36,489 nucleotides of DNA from Streptomyces afghaniensis 772 (lineage in GTDB: Bacteria; Actinomycetota; Actinomycetes; Streptomycetales; Streptomycetaceae). Under the pieces are notes generated by a model. It did no database searches. It worked only from the letters and a program-made list of their open reading frames with translations, and was not told the DNA's origin. How positions within the stretch are numbered: position 1 is the first letter of the stretch; each line of letters starts with the position of its first letter. The position numbers and the translations under genes are program-made. Location: positions 1 through 36,489 of the forward strand of contig KE354210.1 of assembly GCA_000415505.1 (NCBI GenBank), given 5' to 3'. Shown here one piece after another: positions 12,236-21,329 of the stretch.

Positions 12236-13096
12236 TCACTTCCCGATGATTTCCGGTGAGGACACATCTGGCTCGCGTCTGGCGGTCGCGACGTCGTCGC
12301 TCTGCGCGCGGCGCCTGATTCGCTCGATCCCGACGGCTCCGAGAATGCCGAGGAACATCCCACCACCTGCCGCCAGGCCGATCATCACGGCCGCGGGCAT
12401 CTCCTTGACGCGCACCGCCGGACTGATCGAGTCGATACTCAGGGTGGGATCCGCGCCGCTCTCGCGGACGAAGTTGAGAAGTTGCAGCCTCCGGGACTCT
12501 TCCCCGGCGTTCGGATCCGCCGCGGTGTTCCTGGTCGCGAAGGCGATGCGGCGATCCAGTTGCGCGGAGATCGTCTGCCACCGATCCTTCAGAGCCGTCT
12601 GTGCGAACGTCCTTGCCAGGCGGACCGCCTGGTCCGGGTCGGCCCCTCGGGCGGTGACCTCGATCAGGTTCGTTTCGCCGACCGTGACGTCGACGGCAGA
12701 GCGGACGGATCCGGGAGTCCAGCGACCGCCGAGGGACTGGGCGGTCCCGAGCGCGACACGGTGGGAGTCCAGCACTCGCGCCACCGTGGAGGAGGTGCGG
12801 TTGGCATCGCCCGCATCGCGAACGAGGCTGGTTCCGAGGAATGTCTCGTCCGATTGCGCGAGAGGCGTGACCGGCATTCTCACGGTCGAACTGTAGGAAG
12901 GGGCTCGTGGCCCCAAGGCCACCACGCTCGCCACTACGGCGGCGAGCGTGGTGAGCACCACGAGTGGCCACCAGCGCACAACGTCGCGGATCCCGACAGC
13001 GCCCGAACGGGCGCCGCTGTCGTGTGGCGCTTCGGGCCGCTTGCCATCCGATGCCGTGGACGTCCCCAGGGGATGCCGATGCAGATCCGTGGTCAT
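12236..13096 (-). CDS. Wzz/YveK-type chain-length determinant protein
   Basis: 286 residues. ATG 13096 overlaps the TGA of the GT4 gene (ATGA). It has an N-terminal membrane helix (WWPLVVLTTLAAVVASVVAL), an external domain of about 150 residues with coiled-coil tendency, and a second helix near the C-terminus (MPAAVMIGLAAGGGMFLGILG), followed by a basic cytosolic tail. This two-helix layout with a Wzz-like start is that of polysaccharide co-polymerases that set chain length with Wzy. No Walker motifs are present, so there is no fused BY-kinase, and no separate kinase is in the locus. Confidence 0.8.
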   Translation of the reverse strand: MTTDLHRHPLGTSTASDGKRPEAPHDSGARSGAVGIRDVVRWWPLVVLTTLAAVVASVVALGPRAPSYSSTVRMPVTPLAQSDETFLGTSLVRDAGDANRTSSTVARVLDSHRVALGTAQSLGGRWTPGSVRSAVDVTVGETNLIEVTARGADPDQAVRLARTFAQTALKDRWQTISAQLDRRIAFATRNTAADPNAGEESRRLQLLNFVRESGADPTLSIDSISPAVRVKEMPAAVMIGLAAGGGMFLGILGAVGIERIRRRAQSDDVATARREPDVSSPEIIGK

Positions 13097-14205
13097 GCCG
13101 GCTGCCTGTATGCGAGAAGGTGCATGGTGACCGCCAGGTCCTCGTCGAGAGACGGATCGGGTGCCACGGCGCAGGCCAACTGCGCGTCGATGGCACGGTT
13201 GAGATCGTGCGGATCACCCGCCCGGAAGGTCCGCGAGGCAAGTTCCCGCAGGCCACCCACGTTCGCCGCGACGGTCGGGGTGCGCAGCTGACGGGCAACC
13301 GCGAGCACCCCGCTCTGGCTCGCCTTGTCATAGGGCAGGACGACGAGATCCGCCGCCGAGATCGCCGCCGCGAACTCTCCGAGCTCGAGGAACCCCACTC
13401 GTGCGACGACGTCGACGCCGTGGGCATGTGCGAGTTCTGCGCAGTGGGCCCACCCGCCACGGTCTTCACCCACGACGGCCAAGCGCCGGTTCGCGGGCCA
13501 CTGGCGAGCACTCTCGACAAGCACGTCGAGCCGCTTCTCGGGTCGGATGCATCCGGCGAAAAGGACGACGGACACGTCCGTGCCGGCACGCCACTCGTTG
13601 CGCCACGCGAGCCGCTCGTCGTCCGAGGCCGCAGGCACGAGCTGGACGAGCGGAGAACAGTGCCCCTCGAGACCGCGGCGGCGAAGGACCTCGACGTCCG
13701 CATGGGAGTAGACGATGACCTCGTGCGGGACTCGAAGGGCGAGCCGCAGCAACGCGCCGTCCACACGCCCCCGTCTCGAGAACGTGTCGTGCGGTGAGTA
13801 GACCACCAGACGATCCCTGAACCGCCCGACGCTCAGTGCGAGAAGTGTCAGGGCCCCCGCCGCGGCGATCCCCTGCACATGAAGGACCGCGCCGGGGGGT
13901 ACCGCGGCGTGAAGGTGCGGCAGCGTACGGCAGACGAACCTGCGGGCGATGGCGCTGGGGCGGCGAGCGCCGCCACGACGATCACGTGGCCACCACGAGC
14001 ACGGGCACAGGTCGACGCCATCGATGCGCACCTTTTCGTGCTCGTGCCCGGTGTGGAGCACCACGTGCCGGCCGGACTCGCCGAGGAGCTGACCGAGGCG
14101 GCAGGCATGCTGGAAGACCCCGGCGTATCCCGATGGTTCGAACAAGTGGATCTCGGGGCGGGCGGACCGGGTCATGCTCGCGCGGTCAGGGACGTGCCCG
14201 GGCAT
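13093..14205 (-). CDS. Family 4 glycosyltransferase, first gene of the exopolysaccharide operon
   Basis: GT-B fold enzyme: an N-terminal half with EIHLFEPSGYAGVFQHACRL and VLHVQGIAAAG, then the GT4 donor domain VVLFAGCIRPEKRLDVLVES, RLAVVGEDRGG, VARVGFLELGEFAAAISAADLVVLPY and SQSGVLAVARQL. I chose ATG 14205 (370 residues) over ATG 14175 because the bases before it (AACCCAGAGGGTCCGTCCCGG) align with the leader of the phosphoglycosyltransferase gene (AACCCAGAAGGACCTTCCCGAG), including the ribosome site. It heads eight leftward genes, overlapping the Wzz gene. Sugar specificity is unknown. Confidence 0.85.
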   Translation of the reverse strand: MPGHVPDRASMTRSARPEIHLFEPSGYAGVFQHACRLGQLLGESGRHVVLHTGHEHEKVRIDGVDLCPCSWWPRDRRGGARRPSAIARRFVCRTLPHLHAAVPPGAVLHVQGIAAAGALTLLALSVGRFRDRLVVYSPHDTFSRRGRVDGALLRLALRVPHEVIVYSHADVEVLRRRGLEGHCSPLVQLVPAASDDERLAWRNEWRAGTDVSVVLFAGCIRPEKRLDVLVESARQWPANRRLAVVGEDRGGWAHCAELAHAHGVDVVARVGFLELGEFAAAISAADLVVLPYDKASQSGVLAVARQLRTPTVAANVGGLRELASRTFRAGDPHDLNRAIDAQLACAVAPDPSLDEDLAVTMHLLAYRQPA

Positions 14206-14212
14206 CCGGGAC

Positions 14213-14248
14213 GGACCCTCTGGGTTGAACGGACCCTCTGGGTTGATT
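14213..14248. repeat. 18-bp tandem duplication in the leader of the GT4 gene
   Basis: GGACCCTCTGGGTTGAAC (14213-14230) is followed directly by GGACCCTCTGGGTTGATT (14231-14248), 16 of 18 identical. The corresponding leader of the phosphoglycosyltransferase gene has one copy, so this is a local duplication of the ribosome-binding segment. Confidence 0.85.
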
Positions 14249-14372
14249 CGGACGGGTTCGGGGCACATGCCAGCAGTCTGCGGTGGTGCCGAGGCGGGTT
14301 CATCGGTAACCGGACCCAACTTTTCACTGCGGGCTACCCAGATACGCCGAGCGACGAGCCCTTACTCGGAGC
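14249..14372 (-). promoter_or_regulatory. Conserved exopolysaccharide upstream element, copy A
   Basis: Read toward the GT4 gene, the core (14345 down to 14293) is GTATCTGGGTAGCCCGC, then AGTGAAAAGTTGGGTCC, then GGTTACCGATGAACCCGCC. Downstream is CAGACTG, then GCAT. Nearly the same sequence occurs upstream of wecB (copy B) and of the phosphoglycosyltransferase gene (copy C), in the same orientation to the gene. The AAAA and CCGATGA blocks, about 14 bases apart, resemble a sigma-WhiG/FliA promoter (TAAA, GCCGATAA). GGGNNNCCC and GGTT-N7-AACC symmetry could also mark protein binding sites. Confidence 0.65.
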
Positions 14373-14474
14373 GCCGGCCTCCGGCTGCCCGAAGCGGGCG
14401 TGAAGGCGTGCAGGCCCGAAGATCCTTAGACTGAAGGTGTTCGGATACACGACGCATCCACCCTGGGGACAGCC

Positions 14475-17096
14475 GTGACCGATCTTCTCGAACGCGGCGC
14501 CGTACTGCAGGATCTCGCAGACTGCCTGGACCAGGCCGAACTCGGCCACGGACAGCTGGTGCTGTTGCGCGGTGAGGCCGGTATCGGCAAGACCGCGGTC
14601 GTGCGGCGCTTCGCGGAGGAGATGGGCGGTGCGGGGCGCGCCCGGGTTCTGCTCGGGGCCTGCGACCCGCTCTCCGCGCCGCGCCCTCTGGGCCCCTTGA
14701 TGGACGTCGCCACGCTGCTCGGCCCGCCGGTGACCCAGGCCCTGGAGGCGGGCTTGCGTCGGCGTACCGACCCGGGCGGCATCTTCAGCGGAGTGCTCAC
14801 GGCGCTCGGCGGCCAGGCGGGAGGGCAGCCGACGCTGCTGGTGATCGAGGACCTGAACTGGGCCGATCAGGCCACTTTGGACCTGGTGCGCTTCCTGGCC
14901 CGGCGGATCGACCGGATCCCCCTCCTGCTCCTGGCCACCTACCGCGACGATGAGATCGGCTCCACACACCCGCTGGCGGCGGTACTGGGCGACCTCGCCG
15001 CTTTGGCTGCGGTCCACCGGTGCACCCTGGAGCCGCTGAGCCGCCGAGCGGTCGCCGATCTGACGGCCGCGGCCGGGCACCCGGTGGACGCCCACGAGCT
15101 GTTCAGCAACACGCACGGAAACCCGTTCTACGTCACAGAAGTCCTGGCAGCCCGCGCTCCCGGCGTCCCCGCCACTGTGCGCGAAGCGGTACTGGGCCGA
15201 ATAGCCCGGCTCCCGGACCGGGCCCGGGAAGCGGCGGAGACGGTGGCCGTCATCGGGCCCCGCGCGACCGAACCGTTGATCGCCGCCGTATCACGGGAGG
15301 CCGCCACGGGGCTGGAGGACTGCCTGGCATCGGGTGTGCTGCGCCCGGACGGTCCGGTGCTGTGCTTCCGCAACGAGCTGGCGCGCCGGGCCGTCTGGGA
15401 GTCGCTCCCGGTCTACCGGCGCGCCAGGCTGCACGGCCGCGTCCTGGCGGCCTTGCGCTCCGGACCGGTCGACCCGGTCGATCTCGCCCAGCTCGCCTTC
15501 CACGCCGAGCAGGCCGGGGACGAAGGGGCCGTGGCCGAGTACGCCCCGCGGGCAGCCTCCTACGCTGCGGCGCTCGGCTCGCACCGGGAGGCCGCCGAAC
15601 TGTACGGCCGCGCCGTGCGCAACCCGGCTTCCGCACCGTCCGCACAGCGTATCGAACTGCTCGAAGCCCAGGCGTACGAGAACTACGTGACCGGGAACGT
15701 TCCGGAGGCGATCGACGCCTGGGACGAAGCGGTCCTGCTGCGCCACGAGCAGGGCGACCGGCGCCGCGAGGCAGAGGACCTGCGCCGGCTCTCCCACATG
15801 CACTGGCTGGCGGTCCACCGGACGGACGCCTGGAGAGCGGGCCTGGACGCCGTGCGCGTGCTGGAAGGCGAGGACGCGCCCCGGGAACTCGCCTGGGCCT
15901 ACGCCCACCTCGCCCAACTGGCCTGCCTCGGCTACGACCCCGCGACGACGGCCGATTACGCGGGCAAGGCCACCGAACTGGGGCTGGGCCTGGGCGAACC
16001 CGCGCTGAAGGCCCATGCGCGTGTCTGCGAGGCCCTGGTGAACGTGGCCTGCCGCGGGCAGGGCTGGCCGAGTTTCGAGGACGCCTGGCACGCGGCCATG
16101 GCCGAGGAGGGCCTGACGGACGACGCCTGCAAGGTCGGAGCGGTGGCCTGCTGGACCGCGGCACTCCATCACGATCTGCCGCGCCTCGATCGACTGACCG
16201 TCCGCACCTGCGCGTACTGCCGCGAACACGAACTCCCGATGTTCCTCGTGCTGGCCCTCGGAACGGCCGGCCTCGGCATGCTGCACCGTGGCCAGTGGGC
16301 ACGGGCCGCCCAGAAGGCGGGCGACGTGCTCGACCGGAACCCCCAGCCGGTGCACCGGCTGCTGCCCTTGGTGACGTCAGCGCTGGTCAGGGCCCGCCGA
16401 GGCGAACCGGGGGTGTGGCCACTGCTGGACGAGGCACTCTCGTACGGCGAAGACGCGGATCTCTTCCTGGCGGGCCCGGTATGGGCCGCCCGCGCCGAGG
16501 CGGCCTGGCTCGAAGGGGACGACAGCCTCGCCGTGGCGGAGGCCGAACACGGTCTGAAGGCCGTCACCATCGACAGCGACCCCTGGCTCGTCGGCGGACT
16601 GCTGCGCTGGTCCCGGCTGACGGGCGGCGAACCCCCGCAGACGCGGGCGGCAGAGCCGTACGCCCTGGAACTGGCCGGGCAGTGGCGCGAGGCGGTGCGC
16701 GTGTGGGAGGAGCTCGGTTGTCCGTACGACGCGGCGCTGGCCCGCCTCGGCGGTGATGTACCCGCCATACGGCAGGCACTGGAGACCTTCCGCTCCCTGG
16801 GGGCCCGACCCGCTGCGGAGCGCGCCTGGGAACGCCTGCGGGCGGCCGGGGTGCGGCGCACCTCGTACGGCAAGCGCGCCTCGACGTGCGCCAACCCGTA
16901 CGGCCTGACCAAGCGGGAGCGGGAGGTCCAGCACCTGCTGCGCGAGGGACTCAGCAACAGGGAGATCGCCGCCCGGCTCTACATCACCCCCAAGACCGCC
17001 GCACATCACGTGGCCGCCGTGCTCGCGAAACTCGGCGTCCACACGCGCGAGGAGGCCGCCATCCCGCTTGACCAGGACCGGTCCGGACTCTCCTGA
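14475..17096 (+). CDS. LuxR-family LAL-type transcriptional regulator with AAA ATPase domain
   Basis: 873 residues from GTG 14475 with GGGGAC upstream. N-terminal AAA_16/LAL ATPase: Walker A LLRGEAGIGKTAVV near residues 30-43 and Walker B LLVIEDLNWAD near 121-131. The long alpha-helical middle is TPR-like. The C-terminal LuxR/GerE helix-turn-helix includes GLTKREREVQHLL, EGLSNREIAARLYI and KTAAHHVAAVLAKLGVHTR. LAL regulators are large ATP-dependent activators, often cluster-situated. It lies between the two halves of the exopolysaccharide locus and is divergent from the eight-gene operon, so it is the natural candidate to control the three shared upstream elements. That link is inferred from position only. 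Confidence 0.9.
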   Translation: MTDLLERGAVLQDLADCLDQAELGHGQLVLLRGEAGIGKTAVVRRFAEEMGGAGRARVLLGACDPLSAPRPLGPLMDVATLLGPPVTQALEAGLRRRTDPGGIFSGVLTALGGQAGGQPTLLVIEDLNWADQATLDLVRFLARRIDRIPLLLLATYRDDEIGSTHPLAAVLGDLAALAAVHRCTLEPLSRRAVADLTAAAGHPVDAHELFSNTHGNPFYVTEVLAARAPGVPATVREAVLGRIARLPDRAREAAETVAVIGPRATEPLIAAVSREAATGLEDCLASGVLRPDGPVLCFRNELARRAVWESLPVYRRARLHGRVLAALRSGPVDPVDLAQLAFHAEQAGDEGAVAEYAPRAASYAAALGSHREAAELYGRAVRNPASAPSAQRIELLEAQAYENYVTGNVPEAIDAWDEAVLLRHEQGDRRREAEDLRRLSHMHWLAVHRTDAWRAGLDAVRVLEGEDAPRELAWAYAHLAQLACLGYDPATTADYAGKATELGLGLGEPALKAHARVCEALVNVACRGQGWPSFEDAWHAAMAEEGLTDDACKVGAVACWTAALHHDLPRLDRLTVRTCAYCREHELPMFLVLALGTAGLGMLHRGQWARAAQKAGDVLDRNPQPVHRLLPLVTSALVRARRGEPGVWPLLDEALSYGEDADLFLAGPVWAARAEAAWLEGDDSLAVAEAEHGLKAVTIDSDPWLVGGLLRWSRLTGGEPPQTRAAEPYALELAGQWREAVRVWEELGCPYDAALARLGGDVPAIRQALETFRSLGARPAAERAWERLRAAGVRRTSYGKRASTCANPYGLTKREREVQHLLREGLSNREIAARLYITPKTAAHHVAAVLAKLGVHTREEAAIPLDQDRSGLS

Positions 17097-17132
17097 TGGC
17101 GAACACTCGAAGTGCGGTGACGGCCACTCCCG

Positions 17133-17212
17133 GTATCTGGGCATCCCGCCGCGAAAAGCTGGGTCCGGTTACCGATGAACCTGCCCCGAACACCCCCTCA
17201 GACTGGACGCAT
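17133..17212 (+). promoter_or_regulatory. Conserved exopolysaccharide upstream element, copy B
   Basis: The core 17133-17185 reads GTATCTGGGCATCCCGCC, then GCGAAAAGCTGGGTCC, then GGTTACCGATGAACCTGCC; CAGACTG at 17199-17205 and GCAT at 17209-17212 follow. It is oriented toward wecB, whose ATG is 34 bases further. It shares the core with copies A and C but diverges outside it, so it best defines the functional part of the element. Confidence 0.65.
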
Positions 17213-17246
17213 CTCTTGCCGGCGCCGGACGTAGGAGTGGTGGCAC

Positions 17247-18386
17247 ATGGCGAGGCGCATCCGCGTGGTCACGTTCGTGGGCACACGGCCCGAGGTCATC
17301 AAGATGTATTCGCCCATTCGGGCACTACGCGACCTGGATTCGACCTTCGAGACGATCGTGTGCTCCAGCGGCCAGCATACAGAGCTGTTGTCCGATGCCC
17401 TCACGACGTTCGGGATGAGCGCCGACTACCAGTTGGCGGTGATGCGAAAGAACCAACGGCCTGCTGAGGTGGCGTGGAAAGTGGCTCAGTGGGCCGCCGA
17501 CATCTGTGACCGGCTGCGCCCGGACGTGGTCATGGTTCAGGGCGACACGACGACCACGATGGCCGCCGGCGTCGCGGCCTTTCACTCCTCCACGCGAGTG
17601 GCTCACGTCGAAGCCGGCCTGCGGACCTATGACAACCGTGCCCCTTGGCCCGAAGAGGGCCACCGGCGGATCGTCGGCGCGATCGCGGATCTGCACTTCG
17701 CCCCCAGCGAGACGGCTGCGGCCAACCTCGTACGTGAGGGGGTGGCATCGGACCGGATATTCCTCACCGGGAACACCGGCATCGACGCGCTCTACTGGGC
17801 CCGCTCACAACCGCGCCAAACGGCCGCGCCCTCCGAAGGACAACGTCGAATTGTGATCACCACACACAGGCGCGAGAGCATCCCCGACGGGATCAGATCC
17901 GTCTTCGGCGCCGTCCGGCAGCTGGCGAGTCTCTACCCCGACGTGCAATTCCAGTTGGTGCGTCACCCGTCTCCGCCGGTCATCCAGATGATCCAGCAGA
18001 TGCTGAACGGAACCCGCCCCCCGAACGTCGAGGTGCTGGCGCCATGCAGCTACATCCCGTTCACGCACATGCTCGCCGACTCGTATGTGATAGTGACGGA
18101 TTCGGGCGGCATCCAGGAGGAGGCACCAGCCTTGGGTAAACCGCTCCTCGTGGTCAACCGTCGCACGGAACGCGAGGAGCCCCTCAGGGCCGGAACATCC
18201 AACCTTGTAGGAACCGATCAGCACGACATCGTCGCAGCGGTGGCCGCACTGCTCGAGGACCCCGTCCTCTATGCACGCATGGCCACTCGCCATGACCCCT
18301 ACGGGGACGGCCTCGCCGGCGAGCGGATCGTGAAGATCCTCGGCGAGGAGATGGCGCCATCGGTACGCACGGAGTGCCGGCGATGA
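17247..18386 (+). CDS. wecB: UDP-N-acetylglucosamine 2-epimerase (non-hydrolysing)
   Basis: 379 residues from ATG 17247 with GGAG nine bases upstream. It interconverts UDP-GlcNAc and UDP-ManNAc. Visible family motifs: VVTFVGTRPEVIKM at the start, SSGQHTELL, MVQGDTTTTMA (catalytic Asp), AHVEAGLRT (Glu), PWPEEGHRR (Glu), TTHRRES, RHPSPPV (His) and VTDSGGIQEEAPALGKP. Some positions are unusual for the family: PSP instead of PNP after the His, and NRRTEREE where RDTTERPE is common. So it may be a divergent subgroup. It overlaps the next gene by ATGA. The WecG-like transferase in the same locus is the likely consumer of its product. Confidence 0.9.
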   Translation: MARRIRVVTFVGTRPEVIKMYSPIRALRDLDSTFETIVCSSGQHTELLSDALTTFGMSADYQLAVMRKNQRPAEVAWKVAQWAADICDRLRPDVVMVQGDTTTTMAAGVAAFHSSTRVAHVEAGLRTYDNRAPWPEEGHRRIVGAIADLHFAPSETAAANLVREGVASDRIFLTGNTGIDALYWARSQPRQTAAPSEGQRRIVITTHRRESIPDGIRSVFGAVRQLASLYPDVQFQLVRHPSPPVIQMIQQMLNGTRPPNVEVLAPCSYIPFTHMLADSYVIVTDSGGIQEEAPALGKPLLVVNRRTEREEPLRAGTSNLVGTDQHDIVAAVAALLEDPVLYARMATRHDPYGDGLAGERIVKILGEEMAPSVRTECRR

Positions 18387-19513
18387 CGGCGGCGTCCCCG
18401 ATCACCGGTACCGCTCTGTCTGCGGAGACAGCTGAGGCTGCCCGGCGCATCGAGCGATGGTTGCTGCACAGCGGGGTTCAGATCGAGGAGGGCGCCCAGC
18501 GCGGAGCGGTCGCCGGATGGCTGGATCGGGAGGGGCGACCAGAATTCGTATACCTCGAGATCACCGGCTACTACCTGACCACGATGGCCTGGTTGGCCTC
18601 GGGCTCGGCGAGCTCTCCGGACCGTGCCGCCGATGCAGACGAGCACGGCCGGCAGGCGTTGGACTGGATCACTCGCACCGTCTCGGAACATGAAGTTCCG
18701 CCGACACGGCTGTACCTGTCGGCCGGTCGCTCCGATTGGCGGAACGCCGGCGTGTTCACGTTCGACCTGGCGATGGCAGCGCGGGGAGTCGCAAGTTTCC
18801 GGCACGGAACAGAAGGGAAGCTCGCCGCCGACCTCTGCACCATCGTCGAAGGCATCTGTTCGGGAGCCGCCGTCCTGCCGTCCCATGACGCGGTCGGCGG
18901 CGCGCCACTGCCCGACCGTTGGTCGACGCGACCCGGTCCGCACCATCTGAAGGCGGCTGCGGCCTTGCTCCGGATTCCTGATGGCGCGCTCAGGACACCT
19001 CTCAGGCGGATCTGCCGGCGGACCTGCGAGCACTGGGAGGCGGTGTTGCAGCAAGGCTGGCCGTGCCGCGAGTTGCACCCGCTCCTCTACGGGATCGAGG
19101 GCCTGCTGATCGGGGCGCCACATGCGGAAGACGAGGCGCTGGAGGTCGTCGAAAGGCTCTACGCGCGCCTCATGGGACTGCAGGCCGATGACGGAACCCT
19201 TGCGGAGACCGCGGGAGGGGGGATCGTACGTTCCGACGTTCTCGCCCAGGCCTTGCGCATCGGCCTCCTGCTGCGCGGCCGTGGTTACCTGCGGGGGGAC
19301 CACTGGTCCGGGCGTCTGGAGGGGCTGACGCGGGCCCTGCTCGGCTCCGTGCGACCGGACGGGGGCGTCCTCTTCTCAGGCGGTCAGGACATCGCCAATG
19401 CCTGGTCTGCGATGTTCACCCACCAGGCGCTGCTCCTTCACGCCCGCGGCGCCGATCAGGATCCCCAGGACCCCCTGAACCTGCACGCAGTCGTCTCGGA
19501 GCTGCTGGTGTGA
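18383..19513 (+). CDS. Unrecognised alpha/alpha-toroid-like protein coupled to wecB
   Basis: 376 residues from ATG 18383, overlapping the wecB stop (ATGA), so the two are translated together. No signal peptide or membrane helix is seen. The sequence is mostly helical with repeated aromatic/glycine patterns: LEITGYYLTTMAWL, NAGVFTFDLAMAARGV, LHPLLYGIEGLLIGA, LQADDGTLAETAGG, RSDVLAQALRIGLLL and VRPDGGVLFSGGQDIANAWSAMFTHQALLLHA. This spacing resembles (alpha/alpha)6 barrels such as terpenoid-cyclase-like, GlcNAc 2-epimerase-like or polysaccharide-active proteins. I cannot name the family. Co-translation with an epimerase and its place in the locus suggest work on a sugar nucleotide or on the polymer. 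Confidence 0.7.
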   Translation: MTAASPITGTALSAETAEAARRIERWLLHSGVQIEEGAQRGAVAGWLDREGRPEFVYLEITGYYLTTMAWLASGSASSPDRAADADEHGRQALDWITRTVSEHEVPPTRLYLSAGRSDWRNAGVFTFDLAMAARGVASFRHGTEGKLAADLCTIVEGICSGAAVLPSHDAVGGAPLPDRWSTRPGPHHLKAAAALLRIPDGALRTPLRRICRRTCEHWEAVLQQGWPCRELHPLLYGIEGLLIGAPHAEDEALEVVERLYARLMGLQADDGTLAETAGGGIVRSDVLAQALRIGLLLRGRGYLRGDHWSGRLEGLTRALLGSVRPDGGVLFSGGQDIANAWSAMFTHQALLLHARGADQDPQDPLNLHAVVSELLV

Positions 19514-19548
19514 GCTTCGCCTTGTGAGCCTCGCCCCCTGGGAAGCCC

Positions 19549-20208
19549 TCAGTACGCGCCTCGGCGCGCGAGCACGGCCGGCACCGTCCTGACCAGGAGC
19601 GTGATGTCCAGCAGGAGGTCCCACTGGGCGATGTAGTCCAGGTCCATCCGCACTTGTTCGGCGAACTCGACGTCGGAGCGGCCGCTGACCTGCCAGATGC
19701 ATGTGATACCGGGCTTCACGAGCAATCGCAGCCGCTCCCGCGGACCATAGAGCTCACACTCCTCCGGAAGGGGAGGCCGTGGGCCGACGAGGCTCATCTC
19801 GCCGTGTACGACGTTCAGCAGCTGTGGCAGCTCATCGATGCTCCACGTGCGAAGAACGCGTCCCACCGGGGTGACCCTCGGATCGTGACCGATCTTGAAG
19901 AGGGGACCGGCGCATTCGTTCAGGTCCAGATACGCCGACCGCTGACGCTCCGCATCCAGACACATCGAGCGAAACTTGAACATCCTGAAGGGCTTCCCGT
20001 CGCGGCCGACTCGCTCTTGCAGGAAAAGGACCGGTCCCGCGGAAGACAGCTTGATCGCGCATGCCGCCACCAGAAAGACCGGCGACAGAAGGATCAGTGC
20101 AAGCAGGGCGAGGACGAGGTCAAAAACACGCTTCCCGAGCAGTTGGCGGCTACTCGCTGCAACAAGGCCGCAATCGAGACGTGGCGGGATATCGGCATGC
20201 GCTGACAT
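19549..20208 (-). CDS. Polyprenyl phosphoglycosyltransferase (initiating sugar-1-phosphate transferase)
   Basis: 219 residues from ATG 20208, with AAGGA nine bases upstream. One hydrophobic N-terminal helix ([25 protein letters not shown]), then the catalytic domain with [44 protein letters not shown] and [16 protein letters not shown]. This is a short monotopic enzyme, the catalytic core without the N-terminal WbaP domain. It transfers a sugar-1-phosphate from a nucleotide sugar to undecaprenyl phosphate, the first step of the repeat unit. It is transcribed alone, convergent with the toroid gene (35-base gap), and shares its upstream element and leader with the eight-gene operon. Confidence 0.92.
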
Positions 20209-20223
20209 CTCGGGAAGGTCCTT

Positions 20224-20368
20224 CTGGGTTGGTTTGACCGGGTTCAGGGGTTATGCAAGCAGTCTGCGGTGGCCGCCGAGGCAGCTTCATCGGCAACCGG
20301 ACCCGATTTTTAACGGCGGGATACCCAGATACGCCGAGCGACGACGCTCCTACTCAGCCGGAGCGGCA
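20224..20368 (-). promoter_or_regulatory. Conserved exopolysaccharide upstream element, copy C
   Basis: Read toward the phosphoglycosyltransferase, the core (20332 down to 20280) is GTATCTGGGTATCCCGCC, then GTTAAAAATCGGGTCC, then GGTTGCCGATGAAGCTGCC. TAAA (20312-20309) and GCCGATGA (20294-20287) are 14 bases apart and are the best match in the window to a sigma-WhiG/FliA promoter. Similarity to copy A continues on both sides of the core, from GCTCC upstream through CGTCGCTCGGCG, and downstream through GCAGACTGC and GAACCC to the ribosome site. The two regions therefore look like duplicates of about 150 bases. Confidence 0.65.
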
Positions 20369-20405: not shown

Positions 20406-21329
20406 GTGACACCTGTGAGCGTGAGCCGAACCGATCAGGTCGCGACCTGCCCCACCGAGAAGTTCCGCCCGCCGGAGGAGCTCAGGGGCAGCACGGTCGT
20501 CGTCAAGTACGGCGGCCACGCCATGGTGGACCCCGGCCTCCAGCAGGCGTTCGCCCACGACGTCGTGGAGCTGTGGCACGCGGGTCTGCGCCCGGTGGTC
20601 GTGCACGGCGGCGGACCGCAGATCAGCGCGATGCTCGACCGCCTCGGCCTGGAGAGCCGTTTCGAGGCGGGTCTCAGGGTCACCACCCCGGAGACCATGG
20701 ACGTGGTGCGCATGGTGCTGACGGGACGGGTCCAGCGGGAGCTGGTCGGTCACATCAACGCTCATGGCCCGCTCGCCGTGGGGATGACGGGCGAGGACGC
20801 GCACACCATGACGGCCGTGCGGCGGCCGGCCTGGGTGGGCGGCCGGGCGGTGGACATCGGTCTGGTCGGTGACGTCGTCGACGTGAACCCGCGCGCGGTG
20901 CGCACGCTCCTGGAGCAGGGGCACATCCCCGTGGTCTCCCCCGTGGCCCGCGGTGAGGACGCGCAGGTCTACAACGTGAACGCCGATCTGGCGGCGTCGG
21001 CACTGGCCGTCGCCCTCGGCGCCGCCCGTCTGGTGGTGCTCACCGACGTGGCGGGGCTGTACGCCGACTGGCCGCACAGCACCGAGGTGGTCGAGCGCCT
21101 GACGGCGGATGAACTGGCCGAGCTGCTACCGGGGTTGGCGGCCGGGATGCTGCCGAAGATGGAGGGCTGTCTGCGGGCCGTCCGCGGCGGCGTGCGCGGG
21201 GCGCATGTGCTCGACGGCCGCGTGCCGCACGCACTGTTGCGGGGCGTGCTGGGCCGGAACAGCCCCGGTACCACGGTGTTGCCGGAGCACAGCTCCGATG
21301 CCCCGTGCGCCGGAGCGAGCTCCCCCTGA
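20406..21329 (+). CDS. argB: Acetylglutamate kinase (ArgB), iron-box controlled
   Basis: 307 residues from GTG 20406; other in-frame GTG codons at 20415 and 20421 are possible. No ribosome site lies upstream because the iron box abuts the GTG, so the mRNA may be leaderless. Amino-acid kinase motifs: [10 protein letters not shown] (phosphate-binding Lys), [84 protein letters not shown] and [13 protein letters not shown]. It phosphorylates N-acetylglutamate, the second step of ornithine synthesis. Its place beside a coelichelin-type NRPS, with an ArgA-like acetyltransferase nearby, suggests a siderophore-dedicated copy; a housekeeping argB would normally sit with argC and argJ. Confidence 0.9.

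Follow-up and report, generated by a model that had tools for sequence, protein, structure and literature searches.

Three copies of a bipartite promoter-associated element in a Streptomyces polysaccharide locus and a candidate LAL regulator

Among described control systems, the MalT-type regulons of LAL proteins come closest to the one considered here. In these regulons, represented by the MalT boxes of E. coli and by Actinoplanes sp. SE50/110, a large ATPase-LuxR regulator is associated with a GATGA core near the -35 region; the MalT-like LAL protein of Actinoplanes is encoded inside the region that it controls, and its repeated sites, TCATCC-5-GGATGA, are reported to overlap the -35 in many promoters, with a distance of 34.4 +/- 1.0 nt to the start (PMC7567727). 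MalT multimerises and binds its boxes cooperatively (PMC4381067). LAL genes of antibiotic-producing Streptomyces, such as those for PikD, RapH, and NysRI, lie inside the biosynthetic clusters and likely exert pathway-specific control (PMC9628970, PMC3282765). Operators of SARP and SARP-LAL proteins such as PimR are direct repeats of 7-mers with 4-nt (or 3-nt) spacers upstream of the -10 in a cluster promoter (PMC5930380). The HrdB promoter set of S. lividans and S. coelicolor has a -10 TANNNT, a -35 TGAC, and spacers of 18-19 nt, and approximately 20% of S. lividans open reading frames are leaderless (PMC6742748). Here, we describe a repeated element in a polysaccharide locus of Streptomyces afghaniensis 772, located in a stretch of 36,489 nt on contig KE354210.1 (hereafter, the window; the whole genome is 9.85 Mb), together with a putative regulator, a LAL protein encoded in the same locus.

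The element contains a core of 53 bp that is present three times: copy A (14293-14345, minus strand) precedes a GT4 glycosyltransferase gene, copy B (17133-17185, plus strand) precedes wecB, and copy C (20280-20332, minus strand) precedes a gene for a polyprenyl glycosylphosphotransferase (PGT). Copies A and B agree at 47 of the 53 positions, A and C as well as B and C at 45, and all three are alike at 42. The best other 53-mer of the window matches any copy at 31 positions, and the best match to copy A in simulated windows (order-1 Markov, n = 200) had a mean of 28.45 and a maximum of 32. The observation of three cores, made by the first-pass annotation, is confirmed in sequence and position, with a likeness far above the simulated maximum. 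Strand and gene positions likewise bear out that each copy points at its gene. The earlier description of the copies as lying in the same orientation holds relative to the downstream genes but not on the DNA, where A and C are on the minus strand and B is on the plus strand. A CAGACTG and a GCAT follow the core in all three copies, as had been stated.

Ten natural copies, namely three each from the window, S. albicerus (locus L023), and S. roseicoloratus (L024), and one from Streptomyces sp. ISL-96 (L025), were aligned in a fixed register set by CCGATG and AGACT (in one alignment by CCGATG only), which are found in all ten. Because these two motifs set the register, their invariance arises partly by construction, whereas the near-fixed gap between them (21 bp in eight copies and 22 bp in two) does not. 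The conserved sequence falls into two modules: a distal one with the consensus GTATcTGGGyA, centred near -72, and a proximal one, AAAAnnTGGGTCCGGTTRCCGATG, at about -57 to -33. Their GGG blocks are 22-23 bp apart, which corresponds to two helical turns, and TGGG is complete in both blocks in 7/10 copies. Over the ten copies from four genomes, the distal module is invariant at 9 of its 11 positions and the proximal one at 14 of its 25, compared with 3 of 60 in the upstream flank and 0 of 60 in the downstream flank. Between the window and S. roseicoloratus, the modules agree at 10-11 of 11 and 19-21 of 25 positions, the upstream flanks at 24-29 of 60, and the downstream flanks at 18-30 of 60; for this pair, the fourfold sites of LAL have an identity of 0.712.

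Downstream of the modules, a -10 hexamer has A at the second and T at the sixth position in 10/10 copies, with C (nine copies) or G (one copy), and never T, as its first base. The seventh base after the hexamer, at the predicted +1, is a purine (A in nine copies and G in one), and C occupies -1 in every copy; apart from that first base, all ten show the HrdB-type arrangement, in which TANNNT stands shortly ahead of a purine start. A weak candidate -35 reads TGAA in seven copies and TGGA, TGTG, and TGAT once each, at a spacer of 18 or 19 nt. The reading of these ten copies as a housekeeping-type promoter (mostly TGAA-18/19-CAGACT with a C/A start) carrying an upstream bipartite element at a fixed distance is well supported by the alignment, in which the GCAT of the first-pass annotation becomes the predicted transcription start. 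That the copies might be a shared promoter/operator had been proposed earlier, and the comparison lends support to this proposal, with conserved modules between diverged flanks and a fixed distance to a recognizable -10 and start site. The parts of the three copies in the window are as follows.

14335-14345, minus strand: distal module of copy A, GTATCTGGGTA, at -77 to -67
14301-14325, minus strand: proximal module of copy A, GAAAAGTTGGGTCCGGTTACCGATG, at -57 to -33, overlapping the -35
14275-14280, minus strand: -10 hexamer of copy A, CAGACT
14266-14268, minus strand: predicted transcription start and ATG of the GT4 gene (leaderless)
17133-17143, plus strand: distal module of copy B, GTATCTGGGCA, at -78 to -68
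17153-17177, plus strand: proximal module of copy B, GAAAAGCTGGGTCCGGTTACCGATG, at -58 to -34
17199-17204, plus strand: -10 hexamer of copy B, CAGACT, with the predicted +1 at 17211
20322-20332, minus strand: distal module of copy C, GTATCTGGGTA, at -78 to -68
20288-20312, minus strand: proximal module of copy C, TAAAAATCGGGTCCGGTTGCCGATG, at -58 to -34
20261-20266, minus strand: -10 hexamer of copy C, CAGACT, with the predicted +1 at 20254 (ATA, unusual as a start codon)

The exact bipartite pattern is confined to this locus. The genome of S. afghaniensis 772 has three sites, as do those of S. albicerus and S. roseicoloratus, and that of ISL-96 has one; every site belongs to the locus. Of 392 sampled genomes of the genus and 394 of the class, two overlapping samples, the other 391 and 393, respectively, lack the pattern. 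This restriction in the four genomes having the pattern supports the earlier idea that the three units form one regulon. The first-pass annotation had named the core at many unrelated genes as a finding that would speak against it; the corresponding search was negative for exact matches, and looser half-patterns gave scattered matches. A 17-mer gave 11 matches in the own genome and a control pattern gave 9; seven of the matches outside the locus carry two mismatches, and the fourth genomic match, the only one elsewhere with one mismatch (C394:18936), was taken as chance because it falls within an open reading frame and is not accompanied by the remainder of the core. When one mismatch was allowed, the 18-mer GGTCCGGTTRCCGATGAA matched in 9 of 150 genus genomes (three exact matches in the own genome and one mismatched match in each of eight others), and its control matched in 26. 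A weight matrix of the element was run on the loci from which it had been trained, and its result does not count as independent support.

The probable position of the GT4 start codon was revised. According to the first-pass annotation, the match between copies A and C runs down to the start codon. This is wrong for copy A because its GCAT holds the GT4 ATG itself (14268-14266, 7 bases after the hexamer), and the A-C similarity, 86% over -77 to 0 and 68% over 0 to +75, extends into the coding sequence. The predicted +1 of copy A is the A of this ATG, which is open into GT4 in 3/3 species; no other in-frame ATG, GTG, or TTG precedes the conserved PEIHLFEPSGYAG of GT4 in S. roseicoloratus. Because the predicted transcription start coincides with the ATG, the GT4 mRNA is predicted to be leaderless. 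At copy C, the codon at the predicted +1 reads ATG in both S. albicerus and S. roseicoloratus; ISL-96 has GTG, and in all three the frame continues into PGT. At these predicted positions, a start codon is present for GT4 in 3/3 and for PGT in 3/4 loci. The exception is copy C of the window (20206-20254), which has ATA; unlike in its relatives, PGT begins there at an ATG 46 nt downstream in another frame, with AAGGA upstream. The predicted leader of wecB is 36 nt long and ordinary, with an AGGAG. These predicted promoters resemble HrdB-type leaderless promoters of Streptomyces in the cAGACT -10 ending 6 nt before ATG and in the 18-19 nt spacer, and they differ in that a weak -35 is embedded in a conserved, locus-specific element (PMC6742748).

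The long A-C match is predicted to comprise a promoter and the initial codons of an N-terminus that was duplicated. Over 0 to +75, copies A and C of S. albicerus are 85% alike, compared with 68% and 63% to their window orthologues, and this higher likeness suggests a later exchange between A and C in that species. The N-terminal coding region of GT4 also contains a perfect 18-bp tandem duplication in frame (14211-14246; NPEGPF/NPEGPS).

By family searches, the locus encodes WecB, a WecG/TagA/CpsF glycosyltransferase, a Wzx-like flippase (Polysacc_synt_3), a Wzy-like O-antigen ligase/polymerase, a GT2 glycosyltransferase, a polysaccharide deacetylase, a GH113 hydrolase, a phosphoglycosyltransferase, and the LAL regulator. 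It is a Wzx/Wzy-type locus for a surface polysaccharide as judged from these families, and the product probably contains an N-acetylmannosamine (ManNAc)-type sugar because WecB and WecG are encoded. The genes next to the three copies are listed below.

13093-14268, minus strand: GT4 glycosyltransferase, 391 aa; Pfam Glyco_trans_1_4 on the longer open reading frame from 14319, start revised here
14427-14432, plus strand: probable -10, TAGACT, in the separate promoter of the LAL gene, conserved in 3/3 species, with no bipartite-pattern match there
14475-17096, plus strand: LAL (MalT-like) regulator, candidate activator; Pfam AAA_16 and a C-terminal LuxR/GerE helix-turn-helix
17247-18386, plus strand: wecB, UDP-N-acetylglucosamine (UDP-GlcNAc) 2-epimerase; TIGR00236 equivalog, AGGAG at 17233-17237
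18374-19513, plus strand: conserved protein with no family, overlapping the end of wecB and present in 4/4 loci
19549-20208, minus strand: PGT, EPS_sugtrans type; Pfam Bac_transf, and TIGR03025 at 292.9 bits, just under the cut-off of 295.55

In S. albicerus and S. roseicoloratus, the order of the queried genes is kept from the GH113 gene to PGT, three copies precede the same three genes, and LAL orthologues are in place (90% and 82% identical, respectively). S. albicerus has extra sequence between LAL and wecB (L023:9334-9760), possibly a remnant of a mobile element, and the adjacent element B is intact. ISL-96 retains one element, before PGT. GT4 and LAL had no match in its 20.8-kb locus and sites A and B are lost; of WecB, only residues from 98 onward are matched, and its gene directly adjoins the deacetylase/GT2 end of the locus; the GT2 and deacetylase genes (L025:8616-10033) match in several pieces (tblastn). 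The ISL-96 locus is perhaps decaying.

The LAL protein of the window has 873 aa with AAA_16 at residues 4-152 and GerE at residues 811-862, the MalT-like STAND-LuxR architecture. Synteny between its gene and the sites holds in each of the three intact loci, and of the four genes that separate copy A from copy C, it is the sole one with a regulator domain (Pfam), one of the four having no family. The presumed recognition segment, TPKTA[AG]HHVAAVLAKL, has a single residue difference among the three species, which is confined to S. albicerus. CGATGA, which has 5 of the 6 bases of the GGA(T/G)GA MalT box, is found in 8/10 copies at -37 to -32 or -38 to -33. The synteny, the nearly identical recognition segment, and the MalT-like position of the site make LAL the probable regulator of the three sites. 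An inverted repeat in the LAL leader (14443-14459, GGATAC-5-GCATCC), conserved in 3/3 species, is a possible autoregulatory site.

As in the Actinoplanes system, a candidate regulator is encoded within the locus, and a GATGA core lies near the -35 in 8/10 copies; the element differs in its longer bipartite form, in the GGG blocks two turns apart, in CGATGA for GGATGA, in the missing TCATCC partner, and in its predicted targets, which are polysaccharide genes (PMC7567727). The location of the LAL gene is that of the cluster-situated antibiotic LALs, whereas the cluster is a polysaccharide one and the site is unlike the short palindromes of SCO6993 (PMC9628970, PMC3282765). SARP operators likewise consist of direct repeats ahead of a -10 in a cluster promoter. 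A SARP operator was rejected as an assignment: the two repeats are 22-23 bp apart, in contrast to the closely spaced 7-mers of PimR (PMC5930380), and no SARP-type domain is among the Pfam matches of LAL. A box of the PAS-LuxR type was rejected as well, since TCTGGGTATCCCGC has a 3-base centre and its CCC is lost in copies B and C of S. roseicoloratus (by eye). The consensus of the PimM box is CTVGGGAWWTCCCBAG. The element thus probably works like a MalT-type system by analogy; we do not claim membership in the MalT operator family because the TCATCC partner is missing and SCO6993 binds palindromes.

Several observations weigh against control by LAL at HrdB-type promoters. The TCATCC partner of the Actinoplanes form is absent 5 nt upstream, where copy A of the window has GGTCCG (by eye), and the element has no clear inverted repeat. 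The footprinted LAL protein SCO6993 binds palindromes, and its sites are reported to have inverted repeats from which a consensus could not be predicted (PMC9628970). The GerE domain as a whole is no more conserved than the remainder of LAL in the comparison with S. albicerus (identity of 0.877 vs 0.900; 0.895 vs 0.822 with S. roseicoloratus). A generic sigma-70 scan, which needs 9/12 bases, found no promoter at these sites. The half-pattern CCGATGAANCYGCCYCG, allowing up to two mismatches, gave 81 matches in the own genome and 42 for the control, 3 of them exact (those of the window), 1 with one mismatch, and 77 with two. Finally, the ISL-96 genome has no LAL orthologue (the best match, at 51%, is on another contig), and its copy C is almost intact. 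The element can therefore outlast its proposed regulator, and this case offers no support for LAL as the binder unless the gene was lost recently, which may be so.

That orphan copy speaks for a different binder, namely an activator or repressor encoded elsewhere that acts on the same promoters/operators; the lack of an inverted repeat typical of LuxR-type sites points the same way. The exact element is, however, found at this locus only in all four genomes, and a regulator with this single target region would therefore be expected inside the locus, where LAL alone carries a regulator domain among the four genes from A to C, albeit with one gene of no family. We consider a binder from elsewhere unlikely, yet it deserves more weight than the remaining alternatives. 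The core could itself be a promoter for an alternative sigma factor of the WhiG/FliA type, formed by AAA and RCCGATGA. The WhiG/FliA consensus is TAAA-N15-GCCGATAA. AAA and CCGATG are indeed present in 10/10 copies, and copy C of the window reads TAAA-N14-GCCGATGA; the other copies mostly have GAAA, 14 nt before RCCGATG. TAAA is thus found in one copy only, at 14 nt, and all ten have G after CCGAT where the consensus has A. This reading would leave unexplained GTATcTGGG and GGG as well as CAGACT and the C/A step found 21-22 bp further downstream; it would also predict such promoters elsewhere in the genome, whereas the exact element is confined to the locus. A scan for the exact consensus (spacer of 14-16) does not discriminate because it found 0 sites in the own genome. 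Taken together, an alternative sigma factor appears improbable.

A recent duplication or a small mobile repeat without a regulatory role would account for the A-C similarity beyond the core into the coding sequence, including the close likeness of A and C in S. albicerus. It is hard to reconcile with the comparison to S. roseicoloratus, in which flanks agreeing at 18-30 of 60 positions adjoin modules at 10-11 of 11 and 19-21 of 25, and with the lack of exact copies elsewhere in the four genomes; we regard it as very improbable. Polysaccharide loci are sometimes controlled by riboswitches, and a conserved block upstream of each gene could be read as an RNA leader (a riboswitch or an attenuator). 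The element, however, lies upstream of the predicted start, and in copy A the start codon is at +1. The sequences after the predicted starts (0, 36, and 46 nt for GT4, wecB, and PGT) are not conserved, and no Rfam family was found in the window at the gathering score. An RNA leader is accordingly just as implausible as an inert repeat.

We consider it reasonably likely, as a whole, that the three copies are activator-dependent promoters of three transcription units controlled by the LAL (MalT-like) regulator of the locus. In this model, each copy would be an HrdB-type promoter with the -10 CAGACT, a weak -35 TGAA inside CCGATGAA, a spacer of 18-19 nt, and an inferred C/A start, and the sequence upstream would form a bipartite operator with a distal part near -72 and a proximal part at about -57 to -33. 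Class II activators occupy sites that abut the -35 from upstream and overlap it, as the element does. An activator that binds along a single face of the helix and contacts the -35 region could recruit RNA polymerase by class II activation. The likeliest activator is the LAL protein encoded between A and B, whose own promoter lacks the element; upon a putative signal, it would oligomerise and bind all three sites. Chain initiation (PGT), supply of the ManNAc precursor (WecB), and assembly and export (the GT4 operon, in its presumed extent) would be switched on jointly, and one cluster regulator probably switches on all three gene groups together, judging from the shared sites. GT4, and PGT in the relatives, would be leaderless because promoter, start site, and start codon appear to have been duplicated as one cassette.

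The protein of 18374-19513, presumably in one transcription unit with wecB, had no Pfam or NCBIfam match; its structure model is all-helical at low confidence (mean predicted local distance difference test, pLDDT, of 57), and with this model no PDB match was found at E <= 0.001. The protein of 12236-13096 looks Wzz-like (chain length) by eye and had no match in the family searches. An argB-like acetylglutamate kinase gene (20406-21329, TIGR00761) diverges from PGT and has no match in L023, L024, or L025, and a Castor/Pollux-type ion-channel protein (Pfam PF06241, TrkA_N) is encoded at 206-2839.

The kind of control proposed here is ordinary, and the cluster is rare. A WecB orthologue was found in 1 of 392 genus genomes (the own one) at 1e-100, and a separate search with WecB gave three loci in genome_contigs; locus L052 was taken as a duplicate of the S. 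roseicoloratus locus and left out. At 1e-80, WecB was found in 14 of 293 genomes of the order, namely the own genome, G551 (82% identity), and twelve at 42-45% identity, and the 265 plasmid records were all below 60% identity. Among the matches listed from the open-access literature, there was no such promoter set for LAL/LuxR together with Streptomyces exopolysaccharide or Wzx/Wzy, and the string GTATCTGGG together with Streptomyces gave no match in the open-access library searched. More tentatively, the element may represent an undescribed type of LAL operator: a bipartite direct-repeat site, read by a LAL regulator of a polysaccharide locus, in which GGG blocks stand two helical turns apart and the proximal one is joined to a CCGATG -35 block. 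It would have spread from gene to gene as a promoter-plus-N-terminus cassette with a leaderless start codon, so that a single switch governs initiation, precursor supply, and assembly.

The DNA sites recognised by LAL proteins are poorly characterised. The ten copies found naturally in four genomes, with a sharp consensus, a near-exact promoter spacing, and one obvious candidate regulator, provide a testable candidate for a LAL operator. In addition, the start of the GT4 gene has likely been corrected, and the element would offer a way to activate a rare polysaccharide cluster.

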